Positions 3,627-21,325 of a stretch of DNA of 64,000 bases are shown here, one piece after another. The translations under genes and the position numbers were made by a program. Position 1 is the first letter of the stretch, and each line of letters opens with the position of its first letter. The DNA is from Prunus persica (lineage: Eukaryota; Streptophyta; Magnoliopsida; Rosales; Rosaceae): assembly GCF_000346465.2 (NCBI RefSeq), contig NC_034013.1:12447373-12511372 (forward strand), written 5' to 3'. The notes under the pieces were generated by a model. It ran no database searches, was not told where the DNA came from, and saw only the letters and a program-made list of their open reading frames with translations.

Positions 3627-4015
3627 AGATGCATATCAGATGTCTCTCTCTAGTTCAGAGATGATTAGTTTTCCGGTGGACAAGGGAGTGGTTGCAATCC
3701 CATGTCGTTTTTACGTTTTTATGAAGTGGTTGCAATCCCACATCGGCTGCTTAGATAAACCTCATCTGTTTTTCCCTATATAAAAGCTTCATTCTAGAAT
3801 AGCGATGTTATCACAGACTTCCAAGTCCAGCCATTTACTTTGTTTGGGCTTCAAATGTCTCTGTACATTTGGGCTTTTGGCCAGCTGGAGTTTAAATTTT
3901 GAGTTAAAGTTAATTAGTTTTACTTGATCACAACTTTTGTATTATGTAAGGAGACTAAGCTCTCTCTCACATTTTTTGCTAATTGCACTCTTGGATGAAT
4001 TTCTCATAAGTATAC
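3263..4015. other. Intergenic; GA microsatellite and possible solo-LTR-like sequence
   Basis: No coding signal is seen. A (GA)n tract covers about 3596-3621. Around 3690-3960 there are two copies of GGTTGCAATCCCA, one of them continuing as CACATCGGCTGCT, followed by a TATATAAAAG box. This is the look of LTRs in small TRIM-type retroelements, whose LTRs often contain CCCACATCGG. I could not define both ends or a target duplication, so this is tentative. Confidence 0.35.
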
Positions 4016-4715
4016 TAAAAAGTGCAATTAGTAAGAATGCGAGAAAGAGGTTAATTTCCTTAAGTAATATAAAGGTTGTGATCAAGCGAATGTAAGTGAT
4101 TGATTTGATACAAAAGTGATTGATTTGATACAAAATGATCAAATTGTAAGTGTAAGTTGTTGTCCAGTGCCTAAACCTCCATCAGCTACAGTTGCATTGG
4201 ATGTATTAAATGTACATGGAACACAAGATGTGATCCTTGAGACGTTTGGTTCATCGAGGAAAATAGAAGAAGGGGTCAAGCTAGTTGAAGGGAGTGGTGT
4301 GGTACAATTACTAAATGATCAAATTGAAATTAGAGGTTCATTTGATGTTCTAAATATGCGAGGAACAAGGAATGGAAATGAGACATTGGATTCAACAATG
4401 AATATGGAGGCAGTGGGCAAGCAAATCAAAGGAATTGTTTTGGTACAAAATCAAATTGATGTTGTAGTAACTGAACCTGCATCACCTACATTTGGATTGG
4501 ATGCAATGAACATGCAGGGAATCAGGGATGAGAATGAGCCCTTGGTTTCAATAAGGGAGGCGGCAAACAAACAAATTAAAGGGATGAGAATGAGCCCTTG
4601 AAATCCAAGCTGCAAATGTTCAATTAAAGCTCTCAAATTGGATGATTGATTCCAAAGACAACCAGCAAGCAATGAACATGGAGCAGAAAATGATCTTTGA
4701 TAATTTCTCATTCCA
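4016..4715 (+). pseudogene. Unit A: RPW8/WRKY-gene linker fragment
   Basis: It begins in the last RPW8 helix (AGTGCAATTAGTAAG.. with stops) and is open from 4116 to 4601. The open part reads the linker as repeated blocks of about 45 residues, of the form NDQI-x-EP-PxxxLDVxNxQGTRDxNETLDS-KQIKG. It ends near the segment DNQQ..EQKM..NFSFQ that follows the linker in the 10-13 kb gene. No NB or WRKY part is present. The open stretch is probably a relic. Confidence 0.7.
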
Positions 4716-5564
4716 ACAAGAAAGAAAATAAAATCATCCGCCCTCAAATACTTAAGCAATTAAAAGTTTATATGTAAATACATATAATAATTCAATGATT
4801 CTATCCAATCTAAAAATGTATTCATTGTGTTCTTCTCTTTTTCTCTTTTGTACTGACGTGCAATGTTAAAACACTATTTATTGATTTGTCTACCCATGAG
4901 ATCAAATGAAATAATGTCCATTCATTTAAAACTATGGACGACTGTAAGAATAACAAAAACATGTCGGTCAATGTGGTCAATAATTTCATACCTAAAAAAT
5001 GTGGTTCATAATTTGTAGTTCATTTACTATCTCCAAATTTGTATCTAATACTAAATTAAATTCATTTGATTTAATTTTTCGCCTTTTTTTCTTTTTCCCC
5101 TGTGTGTGTGTTAATTTTTTGGTTGATTTCGATGAAAAATAAGGGTTCAATTTGTGATGGATAACCAAGATATGAAGTAATGATGTGATATAATTTGGAT
5201 TATGTTTTTTTTTTAATTTTATATTTTTCTTGAATGTGTAAAATGACATTGCTTGAATGACATTTTACATAATCTACTCACTAACATGTCATTTTACATA
5301 ATCTACTCACTGAGCGGTGGTTTGCTTATCCCTTACCTATTTTGTTTTTTAGATAAATTAGTGGGCAAGACAGCCAAAACCAGAGAAGTTGGATTAGTTT
5401 AGAGTGATCAACTTTTATTTATATCTTGTACACTTGTAAGATTATTATAATATATATATAATAATGGTAATGTATTTTAACCAATTTTTCAGTATTTTAT
5501 TTATTTATTTCAATTCACGTACCCTGATTCTGGAATATCCTTTATTTTCGGATCGGGCGTGACA
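4716..5564. other. AT-rich insert between units A and B
   Basis: No gene is seen. The stretch 4895-5000 (from CCCATGAGATCAAATGAAAT to the ..AAATGTG end) recurs at about 15930-16045 with a few differences, so a dispersed or duplicated segment interrupts the array here. A 31-bp direct repeat ending in CATTTTACATAATCTACTCA occurs around 5257-5310. Confidence 0.55.
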
Positions 5565-7080
5565 ACATGGAACACAAGAGGGGTCAAGCTATTTGAAGGG
5601 AGTGGTGTGGTACAATTGACAAATGATCAAATCGAAATTAAAGGTTCATGTGAAGTGGTTGAACCTCCACCGTCTGCAGTTGCATTTGATGTTCTAAATG
5701 TGCGGGGAACAAGGGATGGGAAGGAGACATTGGATTCAACAACGAATATGGAGGCATTGGGCAAACAAATCAAAAGGAGTGGTTTGGTACAAAATCAAAT
5801 TGAGATTGCAGTAACTGAACCTGTATCACCTAGAGTTGGATTGGATGTAATGAACATGCAAGGAACCAGGATGAGAATGAGACCTTAGTTTCATCAAGAG
5901 AGACGGCAAACAACCAAATTAAGGGGATACGGGTCATCGAAGTCCAAGCTGTGGATGTCTAATTGAAGCTATTAGATTAGATGATTGATTCCAAAGATAA
6001 CGAGCAAGAAATGATGGTTTTAGGAGTTAAGTTTGAAATTGAACTTGAGTCACTATAGGGCCTCTCCTTAGACATTGCGACAAGCTTTGGAAATATGCAG
6101 AGTAGCAAACCTGACGGTGCTCTAAAGCTTGATTATATGCATTGCACTCAATTGTCTCAGTATGTGAGCGAACTAACGTTAGATGATGGGTTCAATTGGA
6201 GAAAATATGGGCAGAAATCAGTGAAAGGTAATGAATATCAGCGTATTTATTGCAGGTGCACAAATCCCAATTGTTGAACGAAGAAGCACCTTGACAAATC
6301 ATTGGATGGACAGATTACGAAAATTGTTTACAATGGAGGTCACAACCATCCTCATCGTCATTGTACAAGAGAGTCAACCTCTCAACCAATTCCAGCTTCT
6401 TCACATTAAATCTTCGATCTATCACTCCCAACAATGTCCAACTCGAAAATTGAGTCAATCACGATGCATGAGAATTATTTAGCCTCAATTAGAGAGGATG
6501 CTTTTGAGCAAAACTCTCTAATCATAGATTTAGGAGGAGCTGCAGATGAAAGTGATCATGAGGCCAAAATATGGTAAACCTCATACAATTCTGATTAGGA
6601 TTGTGTATATGTCATATATAGCGATTTTTGAATATGTAGAGTGGTTATTCTTTTGTAGGAATGTAGAAAATGCAAACAATCAAACCTCATCAGATTTTGA
6701 GGGTAGAATTTTTAGAAAACCTAGACTTCTGGTGCTGACAAGAAGTGATATTGAGAACTTGGATGATGAGTATAAATGGAAGAAATATGGAATGAAAGTA
6801 TTGAAAGGAAATCCAAATTCAAGGTACACAGTCCGGAGTAGTATTAATTGCTTAGATAGTATTACAACCTTATAAAAGCCTTTTTATTTTTTTTATTTTT
6901 TATTTTTTTTTGGTGAAGGGCCTTAATTACAAGCAAACATTTTCTGAACTTGTGTGCTTAACATTTTCAATTGTTTTCCAATTTGTAGTAACCACTACAA
7001 ATGCGCATTTGTAGGATGTCCAATGAGGAAATGGGTCGAGCGAGCATCACATGACTTAAGGGTTGTGATCAAAACAATTG
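5565..7080 (+). pseudogene. Unit B: linker plus two WRKY domains, disrupted
   Basis: Linker repeats (5569-5888) lead into a group-I-like N-terminal WRKY domain (about 6175-6360) with an intact WRKYGQK heptad, a C-X4-C pair and a downstream HNH. A TGA sits directly after the second cysteine, where the sister copy at 9.8 kb has CGA. A spacer (about 6400-6570) and an intron follow. The C-terminal WRKY domain is split by an intron at the conserved PR position. Its first half (about 6660-6823) has a WKKYGMK heptad and its second half (6988-7075) reads YKCAFVGCPMRKWVERASHD. The copy breaks off before the final HxH and joins unit C. There are several stops and frame changes, so it is non-functional as one protein. 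Confidence 0.8.
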
Positions 7081-8820
7081 TGATCAAGTTAGATTAGATG
7101 AATCTCTTCATGTACGGTTAAGTATACTGAGAGTGCAATTAATAAGGGATGTGAGAGAGAGCTTAGTTGGCTTACGTAATACATAGGCTGTGATCAAGTG
7201 AATGGAAGGGAGTGATTTGGTACAAAATGATCAAATTGTAAATGTAGGTTGTTGTGCAGTGCCTGAACCTCTACCGGCTATAGTTGTATTGGATGTATTG
7301 AATGTACAAGGAACACAAGATGTGATCCTGGACACGTTTGGTTCATCAAGGAAATTAGAGGAAGGGTCAAGCTAGTTAAAAGGATTGGTGTGGTACAATT
7401 ACCAAATGATCAAATTGAAATTAAAGGTTCATGTGAAGTGGTTGAACCTCCACCGCCTACAGCTGCATATGATGTTCTAAATGTGCGGGGAACAAGGGAT
7501 GGGAAGGAGACATTGGATTCAACAACGAATATGAAGGCATTAGGCAAACAAATCAAAAAGAGTGGTTAGGTGCAAAATCAAATTGATGTTGTAGTAACTA
7601 AACCAACATCACCTAGAGTTGGATTGGATGTAATGAACATGCAGGGAACCATGGATCAAAATGAGATCTTGGTTTCACCAAGGGAGGTGGTAGACAAACA
7701 AATTAAGGGGATAAGGGTAGCCGAAGTCCAAGCTTCAGATGTGCAATTGAAGCTCTTAGATTAGATGATTGATTCCAAAGATAACGAGTAAGGAATGATG
7801 GTTTCAGGACTTAAGTCTGAAATTGAACTTGAGTAATTACAGGGCTTCTCCTCAGTCATTGCGACAAGCATTGGAAATATGCAGGGTAGCAAACCTGACC
7901 GTGCTCCAAAGCTTGATTGCATTGCATTCAATCGTCTCAGTTTGTTAGCGAACTAACGTTAGATGATGGGTTTAATTGGAGAAAATATGGGCAGAATCAG
8001 TGAAAGATAATGAATATCACCATATTTATTAAAAGTGCACATATCCTAATTGTCAAACAAATAAGCACCTTGATAGATAATTGGATGGTCAAATGTTTGA
8101 AAATTGTTTACAAAGGAGGTCACAACCATCCTCAACCTCATTCTATAAGAGAGTCAACCTTTCAACCAATTCAAGCTTCTTAACATAGAATCTTCGAGCG
8201 ATGGCTCCCAACAATGTCCAACTTGAAAACTGAGTCAGTCACGATGCATGAGGATTCTTTAGCCTCAATTAAAGAGGATGGTTTTGAGCAAAACTATCCA
8301 ATCATAGATTTAGGAGGAGCTGAAGATGAAAGTGATCTTGTGGCCAAAATATGGTAAACCTCATACAATTCTAATTGGGGATTGTGTATATATCATATAT
8401 AGCGATTTTTGAATATGCAAAATGGTTTTTCTTTTATAGGAAGGTAGAAAATGCAAACGATTAGACCTTATCATATTTTGGGGGTAGAATTGTTAGAGAA
8501 CCTAGAGTTCTGGTGCAGACACGAAGTAATACCGAGAACCTGGATGATGAGTATAAATGGAAGAAATATGGAACGGAAGTAATGAAAGGTTATCCAAATC
8601 CAAGGTACACAGTCCTAAGCAGTATTAATTGTTAAATACTATTATAACCTTATAAATGGCTTTTTTTTTTTGGTTAACTTTAATTACAAGCAAATGTTTT
8701 TTAAACTTGCATGCTTAACATTTTCAATTATTTTCCAATTTGTAGTAACTACTACAAATGCGTACTTGTAGGATGTCCAATTAGAGCATCACAGGACTTA
8801 AAGGTTGTGATCCAAACAAT
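7081..8820 (+). pseudogene. Unit C: RPW8 end, linker and two WRKY domains, disrupted
   Basis: It starts immediately after unit B's WRKY domain with the RPW8 end (LDESLHVRLSILRVQL), then linker repeats with stops (open 7570-7764). The N-terminal WRKY domain follows at about 7957-8140. It loses one base inside the heptad region (GGGCAGAATCAG against GGGCAGAAATCAG in unit B) and so shifts frame. The C-terminal WRKY domain is split by an intron (about 8450-8605 and 8747-8800). The overall length of about 1.74 kb marks the repeat period of the array. Confidence 0.75.
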
Positions 8821-10395
8821 ACCGATCAAATTAAAATAGATGAATCCCTTTAAGTACAAGTATACTAAGAGTGCAATTAGTAAGGGATGTGAGAGAGAGC
8901 TTAGTTTCTTTAAGTAATACAAAGGTTGTGATTAAGTGAATGGAAGGGAGTGATTCGATACAACATGATCAAATTGTAAGTATAGGTTGTTGTGCAGTCC
9001 CTAAACCTCCATCGACTACAGTTACATTGGATCTATTGAATGGACAAGGACCACAAGATGTGATCCTGGACACGTTTGGCTCATGAAGGAAAATAGAGGA
9101 AGGGGTTAAGCCAGTTGAAAGGATTGGTGTGGTACAATTACCAAATGATCAAATTGAAATGGAAGGTTCATATGAAGTAGTTGAACCTCTACCACATGTT
9201 GTTGCATTTGATGTTCTAAATGTGCGGGGAATAAGGAATGGGATGGAGACATTGAATTCAACGACGAATATGGAGGCAGTGGGCAAGCAAATCAAAGAGA
9301 GTGGTTAGGAACAAAATCAAATTGATGTTGTAGTAACTGAACCTACATCACCTACAGTTGGATTGGATGTAATGAACATGCAAGGAACCATGGATGAGAA
9401 TGAGACCTTGGTTTCACCGAGGGAGGCAGTAGACAAACAAATTAAGGGGATGAGGGTCGTCGAACTCCAAGCTTCGGATGTCTAATTGAAACTCTTAGAT
9501 TGGATGATTGATTCCAAAGATAACGAGCAAGGAATGATGGTTTTAGAAGTTAAGTCTAAAATTGAACTTGAGTAATTATTGGGCTTCTTCTCAGACATTG
9601 CGACAATCCTTGGAAATATGCAGAGCAGCAAACCTAACAGTGCTCCAAAGTTTGATTATATGCATTTTGCACTCAATTGTCTTAGTATGTCAGCGAACTA
9701 ACGTTAGATGATGGGTTCACTTGGAGAACATATGAGCAAAAATCAGTGAAAGGTAATTAATATCAGCGTATTTATTACAGGTGCACACATCCCAATTGTC
9801 GAATAAAGAAGCACTTTGACAGATCATTGGATGGACAGATGTCTGAAATTGTTAACAAGGGAGGTCACAAGCATCCTCAGCTTCATTCTATAAGAGAGTC
9901 AACCTCTCAACCAATACAAGCTTCTTCACATTGAATCTTCGATCTATCGCTCCCAACAATGTCCAACCCGAAAACTAAGTCAGTCACGATGCATGAGGAT
10001 TCTTTTGCCTCAATTAGAGAGGATGATTTTGAGCAAAACTCTCCAATCATAGATTCAGGAGGAGCTGAAGATGAAAGTTATCTTAAGGCAAAAATATGGT
10101 AAGCCTCATACAATTCTGATTGGGATTGTGTATATGTCTTATATAGCGATTTTTGAATATGTAGAATGGTTATTTGGCCTTCAACGTTCTTCAAACGTGG
10201 TTTCAGGAGTTACATCTGAAACTGAATTTGAGCCACTACACAGCTTCTCCCAAAACAGTTTCGCAAGCTTTGCAGATAAGCATCTTATCATGGAAGAGGA
10301 TGATTCTTCAACCTCAAGTACAGTGGATGATTTGGAACAAAATTCACTACCTAGTGGTTTGAGTCTAACTCATCTGAAACTGATTGATCACTAAT
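8821..10395 (+). pseudogene. Unit D: RPW8 end, linker and N-terminal WRKY domain, disrupted
   Basis: It has the same layout as unit C: RPW8 end, linker repeats with stops, then a WRKY N-domain (about 9701-9880) whose heptad has decayed to WRTYEQK. At about 10170 the copy switches from the intron before the C-terminal WRKY domain to another segment (FGLQRSSNVVSGVTSE.., 10174-10395). That segment is also found at 12630-12862 in the next gene. This switch and the loss of the C-terminal WRKY domain point to unequal recombination. Confidence 0.7.
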
Positions 10396-10953
10396 CAGGT
10401 TGGTAAAGTTTAGATTGATTGAAATGAATACAAGTTTTCTGAATTTTGTATTATTGGTTGTTGTTGGTAGTTTTGTTGTGAACACAATCATGGCACTTGA
10501 GTTAGTTGGAGGGGCTGCTCTATGCAGTTCAAACCCCTCCTTGGAGATCTCAAGTTCACTCTAGACTCGCTAAAACCACGAATCATCCAACAAATAGGAG
10601 AACATAACTTGGCATTAGGTCTCCCAAATGAAGAAATAGACAGCCTTCAACAACAAATGGAGGAGGGTGTAAAACTCGTTGTCAAGTCATCAAAACTTAG
10701 TATGTGGAGCTGCAGCATCTGGTGTAATTGTTGCAATTGCACAAAGCCTAGTTATACAGACCAACTTGTGGAATTTGACAGATCTCTTAGAATACTATTG
10801 GAAATATTGAAGCAGCAAGAAATGAGGGATGTGAATGAGGCACTGTTTTTGGCAAGGAAAATTCATGAAAAACAAGATGAATTGGACAAGAAACTATCTA
10901 ATTTACTAAAAGTGCAGCAAGAAGCCGGGCTGAGAGCGCATGAGGAATGGAAT

Positions 10954-10973
10954 GGGGGGGGGGGGGGGGGGGG
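10954..10973 (+). repeat. Run of 20 consecutive G
   Basis: An uninterrupted guanine homopolymer lies inside the RPW8 region, where the sister gene has ordinary codons (GCAGGGGATGTGGGAGGG). It shifts the frame. It could be slippage, a G4-forming tract or a sequencing/assembly artefact. Confidence 0.95.
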
Positions 10974-12956
10974 AATTTTCAAGAAGCAATAATTCACAGG
11001 CTACATGGCATAAACAAATTTAAGGGAATGGTGTGCAAAGAACTGTTCTAGGAGCAGTGTTTGGGATGCTTTTTGGTGCTATTATACAAGTGAAGGACAA
11101 GACTAAGATGTTTAAGCACATCATTGGATATCTCAACTCCACGTTAGACTCCTTAAAACCACTAATAGAAGAGATAACAGAATATAACAAGGTACTGCAT
11201 CTCCCCAAGGAAGAACTAGAGAATTTCACCATACAAATGGAGATGGAGGTAGAGCTCATTCACAAGTGCTCTAAGGTTCATAAGTGGGCTAACTACAAAA
11301 AATATGAATATATCAACAAACTTCTTAGATTGGATGTATCTCTTCAAGGATTATTAAGTATACTGAGAGTGCAGTTAGCAAGAGATGTGAGAGAGAGCTT
11401 AGTTTTCGTAAGTAATACAGAGGCTGTGATCAAGCAAATTGAAGAGAGTGGTACGGTACAATTACAGAATGATCCAACTGAAATTGAAGATTCATGTGAT
11501 GTACTTGAACCCTCACAGCCTGAAGTTGGATTGAGTGTGCAGGGAACAAAGAATGTGAAGGAGACATTGGATTCGGCAGCAAAAATAGAGGTCGGGGTGA
11601 AGCAAATCGAAGGTAGTGGAGATGTACAAGGTCAAACTGACATGGGAATAGGTGAACCTACATTGCTTACACTTGAAGCTCCGGATGCTGAAAATGAGAT
11701 GACTGAATATGTACCTTCAACAGTTACAGTTAGCTTGGATGTGCTATTGAATGAGTTGAAGAGGAAGCTTCTTAAGGATGAGGCATTAGCGCTTGTGCTA
11801 ACGGGGCCTCGGGGATGCTGCAAAACCACATTTGCAAAAATAAATTGTCAAGATAAGGAAGTTAAAGATATATTCAAGAAGAGTATCTTCTTTATTCGTG
11901 TTTAGAAAAGGCCCAACTTGAGCGTTATTGTACGAAAGCTATATCAACAGATTAAACACAAGGGTTCTCAGATACTTGAGTTGCAAGAAGACACAATTGC
12001 ACTTAAGTGGCTGTAAGTATTTCTTAAGGAAACAGGACAACACCCTTCACTGTTGGTCCTGGATGATGTTTGGCCTGGATCAGAACCCATTCTTGACAAG
12101 TTTGATAATTTCAAAACATCATATTACAAGATTCTGGTGACATCAAGATCTGAATTTCCGACATTTGGTTCTCCATATTATTTGCAATCAATTAATGATG
12201 AAGGCACCATGACTCTTTCTCATCATTCCCGCGCAAACTCCTTCGAATCATTAGACGATGAAGACCTGGTACATGTTTCTCCAGCAACTTCCTCTATAAC
12301 GATGGATGACGATCCAACTACTTACTTTCGTGATTTTTCCACATCCTACCTGGAAGACAGAATCTCTCATGTTTCAGAATATGCTAACCCGATGGCTCAT
12401 TTTCATGATTCCTTTGCATCCACTGCAGGAGATACAAGCTCTTCTATTTCAAAGGATGTTGGGAGTCTCAAGCAAATTAAGGGGATAAGGGTGGTCGAAG
12501 TCCAAGCTCCAGATGTCCAATTGGAGCTCTTAGATTGGATGAGTAATTCCTGAGACAACCAGCAAGGAATGGACAGGGAGCAGAAAATGGTCTCTGGTAA
12601 TTTCTCATTCCAATAAGCAATAAGGAAATTTGGCCTTCAACGTTCTTCAAACGTGGTTTCAGGAGTTACATCTGAAATTGAATTTGAGCTACTACACAGC
12701 TTCTCCCCATATAGTTCTGCAAGCTTTGCATATAAGCATCTTATCATGGAAGAGGATGATTCTTCAGCCTCAAGTATAGTGGATGATTTGGAACAAAATT
12801 CACTACCCAGTAGTTTAGGAGGAGCTGAAGATAAAAATGATCATGATGCCAAAAGATGGTAAACCTCATAAAATTCTGATTGGGAATATTGTGTATATGT
12901 TATATAGCCAAAATTGAATAAGTAGAACGGTTTTTTTTCTTCTTTTGTATCAAGGC

Positions 12957-13455
12957 AGAAAATGTAAATGATCAGACATCATCAGCTTATGGGGGTAGAA
13001 TTGTGGAAGAACCCAGAGTTGTGGTGCATACAATAAGTGAAGCTGATATCCTGGAAGATGGATATAGCTGGAAGAAATATGGACAAAAAGAATTTATGGG
13101 ATATCCAAATCCAAGGTACACACTCCTGACCTTTAACTATTGCTTAGATAGTATTATTGCAACCTTGTAACTAAGTTTAGTCAACATTTTTGGCTGTTTT
13201 CCAATCTGTAGGAGCTACTATAAATGCGCATTTCGAGGATGTCCAATGAAAAAATATGTGGATCAAACATCACATGACTCAAGGGTTGTGACTACCACAT
13301 ATAAAGGGACACACAACCATGGTAGTAGCAGCAACAACATGTACATGCCTGTCTTAGACTTGCCCTTTCAGAACATAGAGCAGCGAACAACACAAACTCA
13401 GCTGTGTCTTGAGGCCCAGGACCAAGTAAGTGAAGATGATTTGTTTTGGGAATAA
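12957..13455 (+). CDS. C-terminal WRKY domain exons of the decayed fusion gene
   Basis: Two exons (about 12957-13115 and 13212-13455) are joined at the conserved intron inside the WRKY domain, after Pro-Arg (AG|GTACAC, then GTAG|GAGCTAC). They read EDGYSWKKYGQK, then YYKCAFRGCPMKK and a final HNH. The zinc ligands are intact (C-X4-C and HxH). The heptad is WKKYGQK instead of WRKYGQK, and that arginine is normally conserved. A 40-odd residue acidic tail ends at TAA 13455. I list it separately because it is undamaged while the upstream NB part carries stops. Whether it has its own transcript is unknown. Confidence 0.65.
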
Positions 13456-16796: not shown

Positions 16797-17822
16797 ATGG
16801 GCAAGAGGAGGACTGTTTTCAATGAGAAGTTTAGACCCCTTCTCAAAAATCTCAAATTCACACTAGATACTTTACTTCCACGTATCAGCCAACAGATGGG
16901 TGATGAAAACAACGTCAAATTGGGTCTGTTCAAAGACGAATTAGAAAGCCTTGGAAGACAAATGAAGGAGGGCACAAGGCTTCTTGTCAAGTTATCAAAG
17001 CCTATTAGTCTATGGAACTGTTGCATCTGGTACAATTGGTGCAACTACACAGAGCTTAGTTACATGGACCAACTTGTCCCATTGAACAAGTCTCTCACCA
17101 TACTGTTAGAAACGCTAAAGCTGCTGCAAGAAGCAAGGGATGTTAAGGAGTGCTCGCTTTCGGACGACGAACAAGATGAATGGGAAAGAAGACTCTTAGA
17201 CTTGCTGAGAGTGCAAACGGCAGGGAATGTGCAAGAATTTTCAGCAAGTAATGAAGAAGAAACCAAAGTGCATGGGCAAACTGTAGGAGAATTATTCTGG
17301 GTGATGTTCGATACCGTTGTAGAAGTGAAACACAAGAATAACATGTTCAAATGCCCCCTCCAACATATAAAATTGACGCTAGACTTCTTAAGGCCATATA
17401 TAGGGATAGCAGAGCTGAATCTCCCGAACGAAGACTTAGAATTTGTTAGAATACAAATAGAGAAGGGTGTAGAACTCGTTCGCAAGTGCAACAAGCAAGC
17501 TAGATGCAAAAAGTACAAATATACCAACAAACTTTTTGAATTGAATCAATATTTTCAAGGACTTTTAGATATCCTGATGATGCGGCAAGCACGGAAGGTG
17601 AGGAAGTGCCATGAAACAGAGACGGTGATCAAGCGAATTGAAGAGAGTGGTGTGGTACAAAACCAAACTCAAATTGAATGTACCAAATTGGATCAAGATT
17701 TTCAAAGAGTGTTAAATATACTGAGGGCGTGGCTAGCAAGGAATGTGAGGAAGCAGTTTGGGGATGTGAGGGAAGGCTTGGTTTCATTGATCAAGCGAAT
17801 TGAAGAGAGAGTGGTGTGCTAA
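16797..17822 (+). CDS. Protein of two RPW8 domains without NB or LRR
   Basis: A single uninterrupted exon of 341 codons. Residues about 1-140 are one RPW8 domain (FRPLLKNLKFTLDTLLPRI, then LVKLSKP and LDQLV-like helices). Residues about 160-270 are a second one (ELFWVMFDTVVEVKHKNNM, CKKYKYTNKLFEL). A third partial helix repeat (LDQDFQRVLNILRAWLARNV) precedes the stop. RPW8 domains form helical bundles related to the N-terminal domains of helper NLRs and MLKL. RPW8 proteins act at membranes in powdery-mildew resistance. Compared with the gene at 18639 it lacks the N-terminal hydrophobic stretch (about 25 residues), so membrane insertion is doubtful. It ends where the NB-containing paralogues enter their linker. 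It could be a functional stand-alone RPW8 gene or a truncated paralogue. Confidence 0.75.
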   Translation: MGKRRTVFNEKFRPLLKNLKFTLDTLLPRISQQMGDENNVKLGLFKDELESLGRQMKEGTRLLVKLSKPISLWNCCIWYNWCNYTELSYMDQLVPLNKSLTILLETLKLLQEARDVKECSLSDDEQDEWERRLLDLLRVQTAGNVQEFSASNEEETKVHGQTVGELFWVMFDTVVEVKHKNNMFKCPLQHIKLTLDFLRPYIGIAELNLPNEDLEFVRIQIEKGVELVRKCNKQARCKKYKYTNKLFELNQYFQGLLDILMMRQARKVRKCHETETVIKRIEESGVVQNQTQIECTKLDQDFQRVLNILRAWLARNVRKQFGDVREGLVSLIKRIEERVVC

Positions 17823-18638: not shown

Positions 18639-21325
18639 ATGGCACTGGCTTTGGTTGGAGGGGCTGCCATAGGAGCACTCTTTGGAGCGCTGTATGATGT
18701 CGTTAAGGAATCGATGGGCAGGACTGTTTTGCAGTATAAACCCCTCCTTGGAGATCTTAAATTCACTCTAGAATCTCTACGGCCGCGCATCGTCCAACAG
18801 ATAGGAGATCATAATGTGGAGTTAGGCCTCCCGAACGACGATATCGAGAGCCTACAAAGACAAATGGAGGAGGGCATAGTGCTTGTTAGGAAGCTGTCAA
18901 ATATTGGTATGTGGAATTGTTATGCATGGGGCAGCTGCTGCAACTGCACAAAGCCTAGTTACAGCGACCAACTTGTTGACTTGGATAGGTCTCTTAGAAT
19001 ACTGTTAGAGATATTGAAGCTGCAGGAAGCAAGGGATGTGAAGGAGGTCTTGCTTTTGGCTAGGAAGATCCATGACAAACAAGATGAATTGGAAAGAAGA
19101 ATGTCAGATTTGCTGAAAGTCCAGCAGGAAGCAGGGGATGTGGGAGGGTCTTCAGGAAGCAACACAGGCACGACGATACAGCAAGGAAACGAAGGGAATG
19201 GAGGGCATCAAGTGGCGCCATTAGGCGGAGTAGGAGGGGCTGCTACTCTAGGAGCAGTGTTTGGAGTGTTGTTTGATACCGTTGCGCGAGTGAAGGACAA
19301 GACTATGATGCTTAAACGCCCTCTCGAAGATGTCAAATCCACGCTAGACTCGTTAAAACCACTAATAGAAGAAATAGCAGCGTATAACAAGGTATTGAAT
19401 CTCCCAAAGGAGGAATTAGAAAAGGTTAGCTTTCAAATGGAAGAGGGTGTGGAGCTACTTCACAAGTGCTCCAAGGTTCGTCAGTGGACTAGCTGCAAAA
19501 GGTATGAATATGCAAACAAACTTCTTGGATTGGACGAATCACTTCAACGATTGTTAAATATATTGAGAGTGCAATTAGCAAGGGATGTGAGGGAGAGCTT
19601 GGTTTCCGTAAGTAAAATAGAGAAGGTGATTGATCAAATTGAAGAGAGTGGTACGGTACAATTACAGAATCATCCAACTGAAATTGAAGATTCATGTGAT
19701 GTACTTGAACACCCACAGCCTGAAGTTGGATTGAGTGTGCAGGGAACAAGGGATGTGAATGAGACATTGGATTCGGCAGCAAAAATAGAGGTCGGTGTGA
19801 AGCGAATCGAAGGTAGTGGAGATGTACAAGGTCAAACTGACATGGGAATAGGTGAACCTAAGTTGCCTACACTTGAAGCTCCGGATGCTGAAAATGAGGT
19901 GACTGAATATGTACCTTCAATGGTTACAATTGGCTTGGATGTGCTCTTGAGGGAGTTGAAGAGGGAGCTTCTTAAGGATGAGGTGTCAGCGCTTGTGCTA
20001 ACCGGGCCTCGGGGATGCGGCAAAACCAAATTGGCAAACAAAATTTGTCAAGATAAGGAAGTTACAGATATATTCAAGAACAATATCTTCTTTGTTCGTG
20101 TTTCGAAAAGGCCCAACTTGAGAGTTATTGTACGAAAGCTATATCAACAGATTAAACACAAGGGTTCTCAGATACCTGAGTTGCAAGAGGACACAATTGC
20201 ACTAAAGTGGCTGCAAGTATTTCTTAAGGAAACAGGACAGCACCCTTCACTGTTGGTCCTGGATGATGTTTGGCCTGGATCAGAACCCATTCTTGACAAG
20301 TTTGATAATTTCAAAACATCAAATTACAAGATTCTAGTGACATCAAGATCTGAATTTCCGACATTTGGTTCTCCATATTATTTGCAATCAATTTATGATG
20401 AAGGCACCATGACTCTTTCTCATCATTCCCGCGCATACTCCTTTGAATCGTTGGACGATGAAGACTTGGTATCTGTTTCTCCCGCACCTTCCTTCACAGC
20501 AATGGATGACGATCCAACTGCTTACTTTCGTGATTTCTCCACATCCTACCTGGAAGACAAAATCTCTCATGTTTCAGAAGATGCTTACCCTATGGCTCAT
20601 TTTCATGATTCCTCTGCATCCACCGCAAGAGATAGAAGCTCTTATGTTTCAAGGGATGTTGGGACAAAGGTGATTTCCTAGTTTGCAATGCACAACATCT
20701 AGCTAAGATTTATTATACCTCATGTGTTCTTACTTCTAAAATTTCTACTTTTCGTATGTGTAGTTGTGTTCTTACTCTTAAGTCTTAACAATATGGCTCA
20801 GGTGCTTTTCCAACTTTAACATGCTCTCTTTCTTTCAATTTAGTTTCCTCTTGGCAATCCTGTCAAGTCTACACAGACATATATGCAGCAGAAGTTGGAA
20901 CTGAAGGTGAGTGCTGATGACAAAACAATGAAGAAAGTCATGAAAGCTGTCTGTGCCATAAAGGGTATAATTCTAACTTTTCTGGCTCAGTTTTGTTTGA
21001 GGAGCTTCAATATTCAAAGCATTCCAAATAAGTTTCTTTTTGTATTTTCCATTCATTTTTCTGTTTATTTGGATGAACAGGGGTTAGTTCGACCAGTTGG
21101 GATGCGAAGAACCAAAAGCTAACAGTGGTAGGACAGTTGGATCCAGCGCTAATAGCGACTAAGTTGAGGAAGATAGTTTCTAAAACAGAGGTGATATCAG
21201 TTGGCCCAGCCGAGGAAGAAATAAAAGAAGATAAGAAAGAGAGAAATCTTACTATGAAAGAGAAAATGGAAGACAACAAAGAAGAAAATAAAGAGAAAAT
21301 TTTTACTAGGAAAGAGAGAAGGTGA
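18639..21325 (+). CDS. RPW8-RPW8-truncated NB-HMA fusion protein (NLR-like with integrated HMA domain)
   Basis: Exons 18639-20669, 20844-20964 and 21081-21325 have clean splice sites and phases and give about 798 residues. The first ATG after the leader is used. Residues 1-25 are hydrophobic/helical (MALALVGGAAIGALFGALYD) and open RPW8 domain 1 (to about 168). Domain 2 spans about 193-345. A repetitive acidic linker follows, then an NB region: P-loop GPRGCGKT at 456-463, kinase-2 LLVLDDVW at 538-545, RNBS-B YKILVTSRSEFP at about 563. The NB homology ends about 20 residues later. There is no GLPL, MHD or LRR, and a Ser/Asp-rich stretch (about 600-675) replaces them. Exons 2-3 encode an HMA fold (about 694-760: KLELKVSADDKTMKKVMKAV, LTVVGQLDP, KLRKIV, ISVGP). 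The CxxC metal site is absent. A Lys/Glu-rich tail ends at TGA. HMA domains in NLRs such as Pik and RGA5 bind fungal effectors, and that role here is inference. Confidence 0.85.

Follow-up and report, generated by a model that had tools for sequence, protein, structure and literature searches.

RPW8 proteins with integrated domains

Fusions of RPW8 domains with other protein domains have been described in several plants. The earlier catalogue of RPW8-RPW8, RPW8-Pkinase_Tyr, RPW8-IQ, and RPW8-RPW8-RPW8-Peptidase_C48 proteins names strawberry for such fusions (PMC5039405). An RPW8-RPW8-SBP-NBS-HMA type is recorded once each in Malus baccata and M. domestica in Table 2 of a survey that lists counts only, and a "-Pkinase" type is likewise in print there (PMC6643876). 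The Arabidopsis protein DAR5 is listed as an RPW8-like receptor that has LIM and DA1-like domains integrated (PMC9528084). In this work, we analyzed a 64,000-nucleotide stretch of the peach (Prunus persica) genome (C5:12447373-12511372 of 227.5 Mb; hereafter the window). It contains a predicted three-exon gene in which two RPW8 domains and a partial nucleotide-binding (NB) domain are joined to a heavy-metal-associated (HMA) domain. From the sequence, we predict a protein with an NRG1-type front half and an HMA domain of the type found in the small HMA proteins called HIPPs, and this domain may well sense a pathogen effector or its tampering, a reading for which we consider the chances evenly balanced.

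Relatives (numbered P0001 onward) were collected by a homologue search that returned 167 proteins, of which the best 120 were considered; 31 sequences were read first and some others later. The peach fusion and the apple RPW8-RPW8-SBP-NBS-HMA type have RPW8, RPW8, NB, and HMA in the same order. The SBP domain lies between RPW8 and NB in P0006 (Pyrus) and P0008 (Malus) by Pfam, and is found neither in the Prunus copies nor in P0007 and P0009 (Pyrus; precomputed domains). DAR5 is not known to have a leucine-rich repeat (LRR) and carries its integrated domains at the C-terminus; it resembles the fusion as an RPW8-like protein with integrated domains, but the domains differ. The rice receptors Pik-1 and RGA5 bear the same HMA fold, and their HMA domains are not known to have a working CxxC. 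However, both are coiled-coil nucleotide-binding LRR receptors (NLRs) with a full NB-ARC and LRR, and the Pik-1 HMA evolves fast whereas that of peach does not. HIPP39-like small HMA proteins and OsHPP09 have close HMA sequences, and the peach HIPP loci L011 and L014 share the internal intron position. These are small free proteins, and HIPPs typically carry a C-terminal CaaX, which the peach fusion lacks. The fusion shares NB sequence and a similar exon end and intron start with NRG1 (At5g66900 group), but it has two RPW8 domains, and an HMA in place of GLPL, MHD, and LRR.

An earlier reading of this DNA (the original prediction) called an HMA bait on an LRR-less RPW8 backbone an unusual architecture. 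This calls for qualification, as the design is not wholly new, given the apple type in the counts of PMC6643876 and DAR5 in PMC9528084. Our literature searches, with subscription papers mostly outside reach, found no study of this Prunus protein and no account of its origin or function.

Exons, splicing, and domains of the predicted protein

The exon coordinates originally predicted were exact to the base (Table 1). Each intron follows the GT-AG rule, and joining the exons in a splice test on the DNA leaves the frame 18639-21325 open over 798 amino acids. Because 31 donor/acceptor pairs leave the HMA in frame, the open frame alone does not fix the splice choice; the splice given here was chosen because annotated relatives use the same junction and the donor resembles that of an NRG1 intron. 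The same join occurs in six annotated proteins of cherry, almond, pear, and crab apple, namely, those of Prunus speciosa, P. campanulata, P. dulcis, Pyrus (two), and Malus (one). In peach, both halves are predicted to form a single transcript.

Table 1. Predicted features of the fusion gene; positions are those of the window and residues those of the 798-aa protein.
Feature	Position	Strand	Content	Evidence
Exon 1	18639-20669	+	Residues 1-677 (677 codons), ends in phase 0; two RPW8, partial NB, most of linker	Open-frame/splice test, Pfam
First RPW8	18651-19067	+	Helices 2-166 in the P. speciosa orthologue model	PF05659, 72 bits (genome search)
Second RPW8	19230-19634	+	Residues 198-332	PF05659, 101.5 bits
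NB, front half only	19947-20354	+	Residues 437-572	PF00931 profile 5-138 of 248, E 2e-15; motif scan
Linker	20439-20669	+	Predicted disordered; stretches like the NRG1 segment ahead of the GLPL exon	pLDDT <50 for orthologue residues 571-691; shuffle test
Intron 1	20670-20843	+	5' end like native NRG1 intron	Open-frame/splice test, intron comparison
Exon 2	20844-20964	+	Junction FPLGNPVKSTQTYM and first half of HMA	Splice test; junction same or similar in P0001, P0003, P0004, P0006-P0008
Intron 2	20965-21080	+	Within HMA	Position and phase as read from peach HIPP loci L011, L014
Exon 3	21081-21325	+	Second half of HMA (to about 21214), K/E-rich tail without CaaX end; stop is the last codon	PF00403, 27.0 bits

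A possible alternative is that two adjoining genes are present, one for an RPW8-NB protein that stops at 20681 and one for a small HMA protein that starts from an in-frame ATG at 20883, just ahead of the HMA. Retention of intron 1 would fit such an arrangement, as it leads to a stop after three codons and a 680-aa form without HMA. However, three peach HIPP loci begin their HMA reading after an AG acceptor (CAG/AAG) with an in-frame stop just upstream (from DNA only), which implies that the HIPP start codon lies in an earlier exon and that the ATG at 20883 is not a HIPP start. Also, the joining residues, including those upstream of this ATG, are largely kept from Prunus to Pyrus/Malus. On these two grounds, we rejected separate genes as the principal explanation, and, with the annotations of six genomes joining both halves, consider them very improbable.

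Pfam RPW8 matched two stretches (E 4.7e-49). The NB part has Walker A (GPRGCGKT at 456), kinase-2 (LLVLDDVW at 538), and RNBS-B (KILVTSR at 564) by motif scan. GLPL and MHD patterns were not found by the motif scan of the 798-aa protein, and no LRR family matched it in Pfam. Because the NB-ARC is partial and GLPL, MHD, and LRR are missing, the protein, which by sequence probably descends from NRG1, is not an RPW8-type NLR in the strict sense (RNL). The HMA scored above the Pfam cut-off (27.0 against 24.8 bits, E 5.9e-6), and its metal loop, SADDKTMKK, has no CxxC. The C-terminus is not CaaX in any of the proteins compared (KERR in peach; IFTM in P. speciosa and P. campanulata; DERN in P. dulcis; EHAL or TPR in Pyrus/Malus).

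For the P. speciosa orthologue P0001, the AlphaFold model has helical bundles at 2-166 and 200-337, an alpha/beta domain at 427-569, a low-confidence stretch at 571-691, and a babbab domain at 693-760 with predicted local distance difference test values (pLDDT) of 74-81. Domain packing is not readable from this model, since its mean pLDDT is 53.3 and its predicted template modelling score is 0.26. The Pfam profiles RPW8, NB-ARC, and HMA thus bear out the domain order first proposed, the profile score and the predicted fold agree with the HMA assignment, and the claimed absences of LRR and CxxC were likewise found. A foreign domain (HMA) is joined to receptor domains in one predicted protein, as in receptors with integrated domains, and this join is repeated in six relatives.

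Relation to NRG1 and HIPP genes

The NB of the fusion matched At5g66900 (8yl6_C) at 128 bits, an RPW8 protein at 47, At5g04720 at 38, and ADR1 at 30. By sequence, this NB is nearer NRG1 than ADR1, and many further homologues (among the best 120 of 167) are named after At5g66900. The peach NRG1 gene PRUPE_7G139600 (P0067) matches the genome exon by exon, with 100% and 99% identity in the two longest pieces, and has a phase-0 intron after ..FHHSASLGDKSSLIPQDLSRQ and before the GFPLA exon. Exon 1 of the fusion ends with ..FHDSSASTARDRSSYVSRDVGTK, also in phase 0, and its intron starts with GTGATTTCCTAGTTTGCAATGCACAACATC; the intron of the NRG1 paralogue L020 starts with GTGATTTCTTTATCCGCAAAGCACAACATA. 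The exon-end pattern was recognised in 5 of 11 NRG1 loci, for which 3, 5, 0, 18, and 3 of 1000 shuffles (preserving base make-up only) reached the score. The remaining six (L021, L023-L026, and L028) have similar read-through such as VIS or VLFSC, by eye only. Linker pieces 583-610, 623-652, and 652-682 also resemble six NRG1-type sequences. In 17 of these 18 comparisons, made without multiple-test correction, 0-36 of 1000 shuffles reached the score; in the other, 152 did.

As read from DNA, the peach HIPP loci L011, L013, and L014 have an acceptor just before the HMA, and L011 and L014 have a GT donor inside it at the place and phase of the fusion's second intron; at L013, the third HIPP locus examined, no GT was found at this position. 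The HMA tree leaves 10 of 20 inner branches open and names no parent gene. Given an intron 1 like that of NRG1 and an HMA intron as in two HIPP genes, the likeliest event is that an HMA of HIPP type took the place of the back half of an NRG1 gene. Exon shuffling is the most likely origin on these sequence comparisons. A stretch of genomic DNA holding a HIPP-like HMA and its internal intron would have landed downstream of the NRG1 intron between the RNBS-C and GLPL parts. Splicing from the native NRG1 donor would now lead to the HMA, and the exons for GLPL, ARC, and LRR would have been lost.

A cluster at C7:15470679-15600648 holds 21 of the 29 RPW8 matches found genome-wide, NRG1-type genes included. 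The NRG1 intron behind the RNBS-C segment recurs in paralogues.

Relatives, conservation, and possible function

The best matches to the fusion include full-length fusions in P. speciosa (P0001), P. campanulata (P0003), and P. dulcis (P0004), followed by Pyrus and Malus proteins (P0006, P0007, and P0008). A linker of the same kind precedes an HMA or a piece of one in P0001-P0004, P0006-P0009, P0011, P0012, and P0017, with the NB lost and the HMA kept in P0012. The proteins P0138 and P0010 (Malus) carry a different HMA at the same position (36 and 35 of 71 residues identical to peach), which points to domain exchange at this slot, as judged from sequence. In apricot, P0005 has NB and WRKY, with the junction and the first HMA residues retained between them.

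A separate search for double-RPW8 proteins, in which only candidates sharing most words were scored, gave 59 proteins, and chosen members were scanned with Pfam. Two-RPW8 backbones were found to carry WRKY-WRKY (Malus, Pyrus), SBP with NB and in some cases HMA (Malus, Pyrus), kinase (Malus, Pyrus, P. mume, Rosa), and NB with CCCH and WRKY (Rosa). The double-RPW8 proteins P0164 (Rosa rugosa) and P0161 have a match to the zinc ribbon of EDR4, a regulator of powdery-mildew resistance, and P0162 (Rosa) has a POX match slightly under the cut-off. In a midpoint-rooted tree of the RPW8 part built from peach and 25 selected relatives (26 rows), the Prunus HMA proteins and P0006-P0008 form one clade (99/97), with Pyrus/Malus sister to Prunus. 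This clade also contains P0012 and P0137, a Prunus protein of 445 aa that showed no HMA. We tentatively suggest, at rather less than even confidence, that a Rosaceae helper lineage turned into a sensor chassis. Its members would be NRG1-related double-RPW8 proteins without LRR, often without NB, that carry exchangeable effector-target domains (HMA, WRKY, SBP, kinase, EDR4 zinc ribbon, CCCH, and possibly POX), and the HMA version in the window would be a conserved sensor and executor in one protein that bypasses the sensor-helper split.

The HMA is a plausible effector bait by analogy. By sequence, the solved HMA closest to it belongs to rice OsHPP09 and was determined with AVR-Pia; the predicted fold agrees with those of rice HMAs whose structures were solved with blast effectors and ties with the RGA5 and Pik-1 HMAs (VIA-align). 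This likeness to effector-binding HMAs, together with the domain exchange at the slot, is the strongest point for a bait.

Several observations weigh against a sensor of this kind. P0009, P0011, and P0017 end within the HMA, apparently by read-through into the second HMA intron, and the almond model P0004 replaces the HMA end, so some copies or gene models lack a full HMA. Among ten relatives scanned, Pfam HMA was above the cut-off in three (P0004, P0008, and P0012), below it in three (P0001, P0006, and P0010), and not found in four (P0011, and P0005, P0088, and P0090, these three chosen for other domains). The HMA-bearing P0138 falls outside the HMA clade by its RPW8 part. Half an NB without ARC1 and ARC2 may be incapable of any switching. 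What counts most against a bait is the slow evolution of the HMA, as seen in an alignment of peach and six full-length relatives (partial relatives were left out, and the domain borders were set by us). Between peach and P0006, P0007, and P0008, which are close kin, HMA identity is 61/71 in each case and that of the remainder about 68%: first RPW8 102-104/131, second RPW8 102-104/141, NB 110-113/167 (66-68%), and linker 54/90. Within Prunus, the HMA values are 69/71, 66/71, and 63/71, the last for P0004 because its model ends differently. The HMA differs from all the remainder (Fisher p 0.001-0.002) and from RPW8, RPW8, and NB combined (p 0.013-0.018); when the first RPW8 is taken by itself, the three Pyrus/Malus comparisons show no significant difference (p 0.19-0.34). 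In rice Pik-1, the HMA shows positive selection and the NB-ARC little trace of it, according to PMC8294853. With its HMA slower than its NB, the peach protein shows the reverse and is not evolving like a Pik-type bait. A hypervariable Pik-like bait is unsupported, the HMA being the slowest part between peach and Pyrus/Malus.

These values are consistent with another explanation, in which the fusion is real and the HMA is a conserved HIPP-type docking domain that brings the RPW8-NB part to a host partner, the protein acting as a regulator of, or brake on, full-length NRG1 helpers. Arabidopsis NRG1C is a truncated NRG1 that acts as an antagonist. With GLPL, MHD, and LRR missing, NLR-like switching is unlikely, and most RPW8 matches of the genome (21/29) are on C7, home of the full-length NRG1-type genes. 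However, double-RPW8 relatives bear a wide range of unrelated domains (WRKY, SBP, kinase, EDR4 zinc ribbon, and CCCH), more like a series of baits, and the HMA resembles effector-binding rice HMAs. On balance, we regard a docking or brake role as less likely than the sensor.

For the proposed sensor, the HMA would hang on the long disordered linker, and effector binding, or loss of the normal host partner, would cluster molecules via the HMA and the NB half, after which the RPW8 bundles would either work at membranes themselves or join full-length NRG1 proteins, e.g., those of the chromosome-7 cluster. Because ARC2 and LRR are missing, the usual NLR off-switch is absent, and control would have to lie with the HMA, the linker, or expression. 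If intron 1 were retained, the HMA-less 680-aa form would result, for which the two splice forms of rice RGA5 described in PMC9528084 offer a comparison.

Finally, the gene may be a decaying relic retained by chance, as its neighbours are, which we judge improbable. The WRKY-bearing copy at 10491-13455 does have stops and frame breaks, and the region 4000-10100 contains broken RPW8/WRKY pieces. However, the copy at 18639 runs through 798 codons without a stop, several species have open orthologues of it, and its HMA shows unusual conservation.

Other parts of the window hold related copies. The paralogue at 10491-13455 is broken: its RPW8, RPW8, and NB part contains in-frame stops that end at 11905 and 12016 as well as a long run of G near 10955, and a single WRKY domain (WKKYGQK) follows in two exons; apricot P0005 is an open NB-WRKY relative. 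The pieces at 4000-10100 are repeats of an RPW8-linked unit with WRKY halves and recall the RPW8-RPW8-WRKY-WRKY proteins of Malus and Pyrus. Seven pieces within 6059-9931 were given to Pfam, and six matched WRKY at E 1 or better, four of these above the cut-off. An open frame of 341 aa at 16797-17822 has two RPW8 domains and begins past the hydrophobic N-terminal helix of its relatives.

RPW8-type NLRs are usually viewed as helpers that execute what other receptors detect. If the proposed sensor is real, an effector-binding-type domain placed directly on RPW8 in Prunus, Pyrus, and Malus would provide a shortcut within one protein, with a switch that needs no LRR. The exon-shuffling origin would be legible in the introns, and the slow HMA would provide a clear test of bait versus guard. 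A working sensor of this kind would also have practical use in the crops peach, almond, cherry, apple, and pear.
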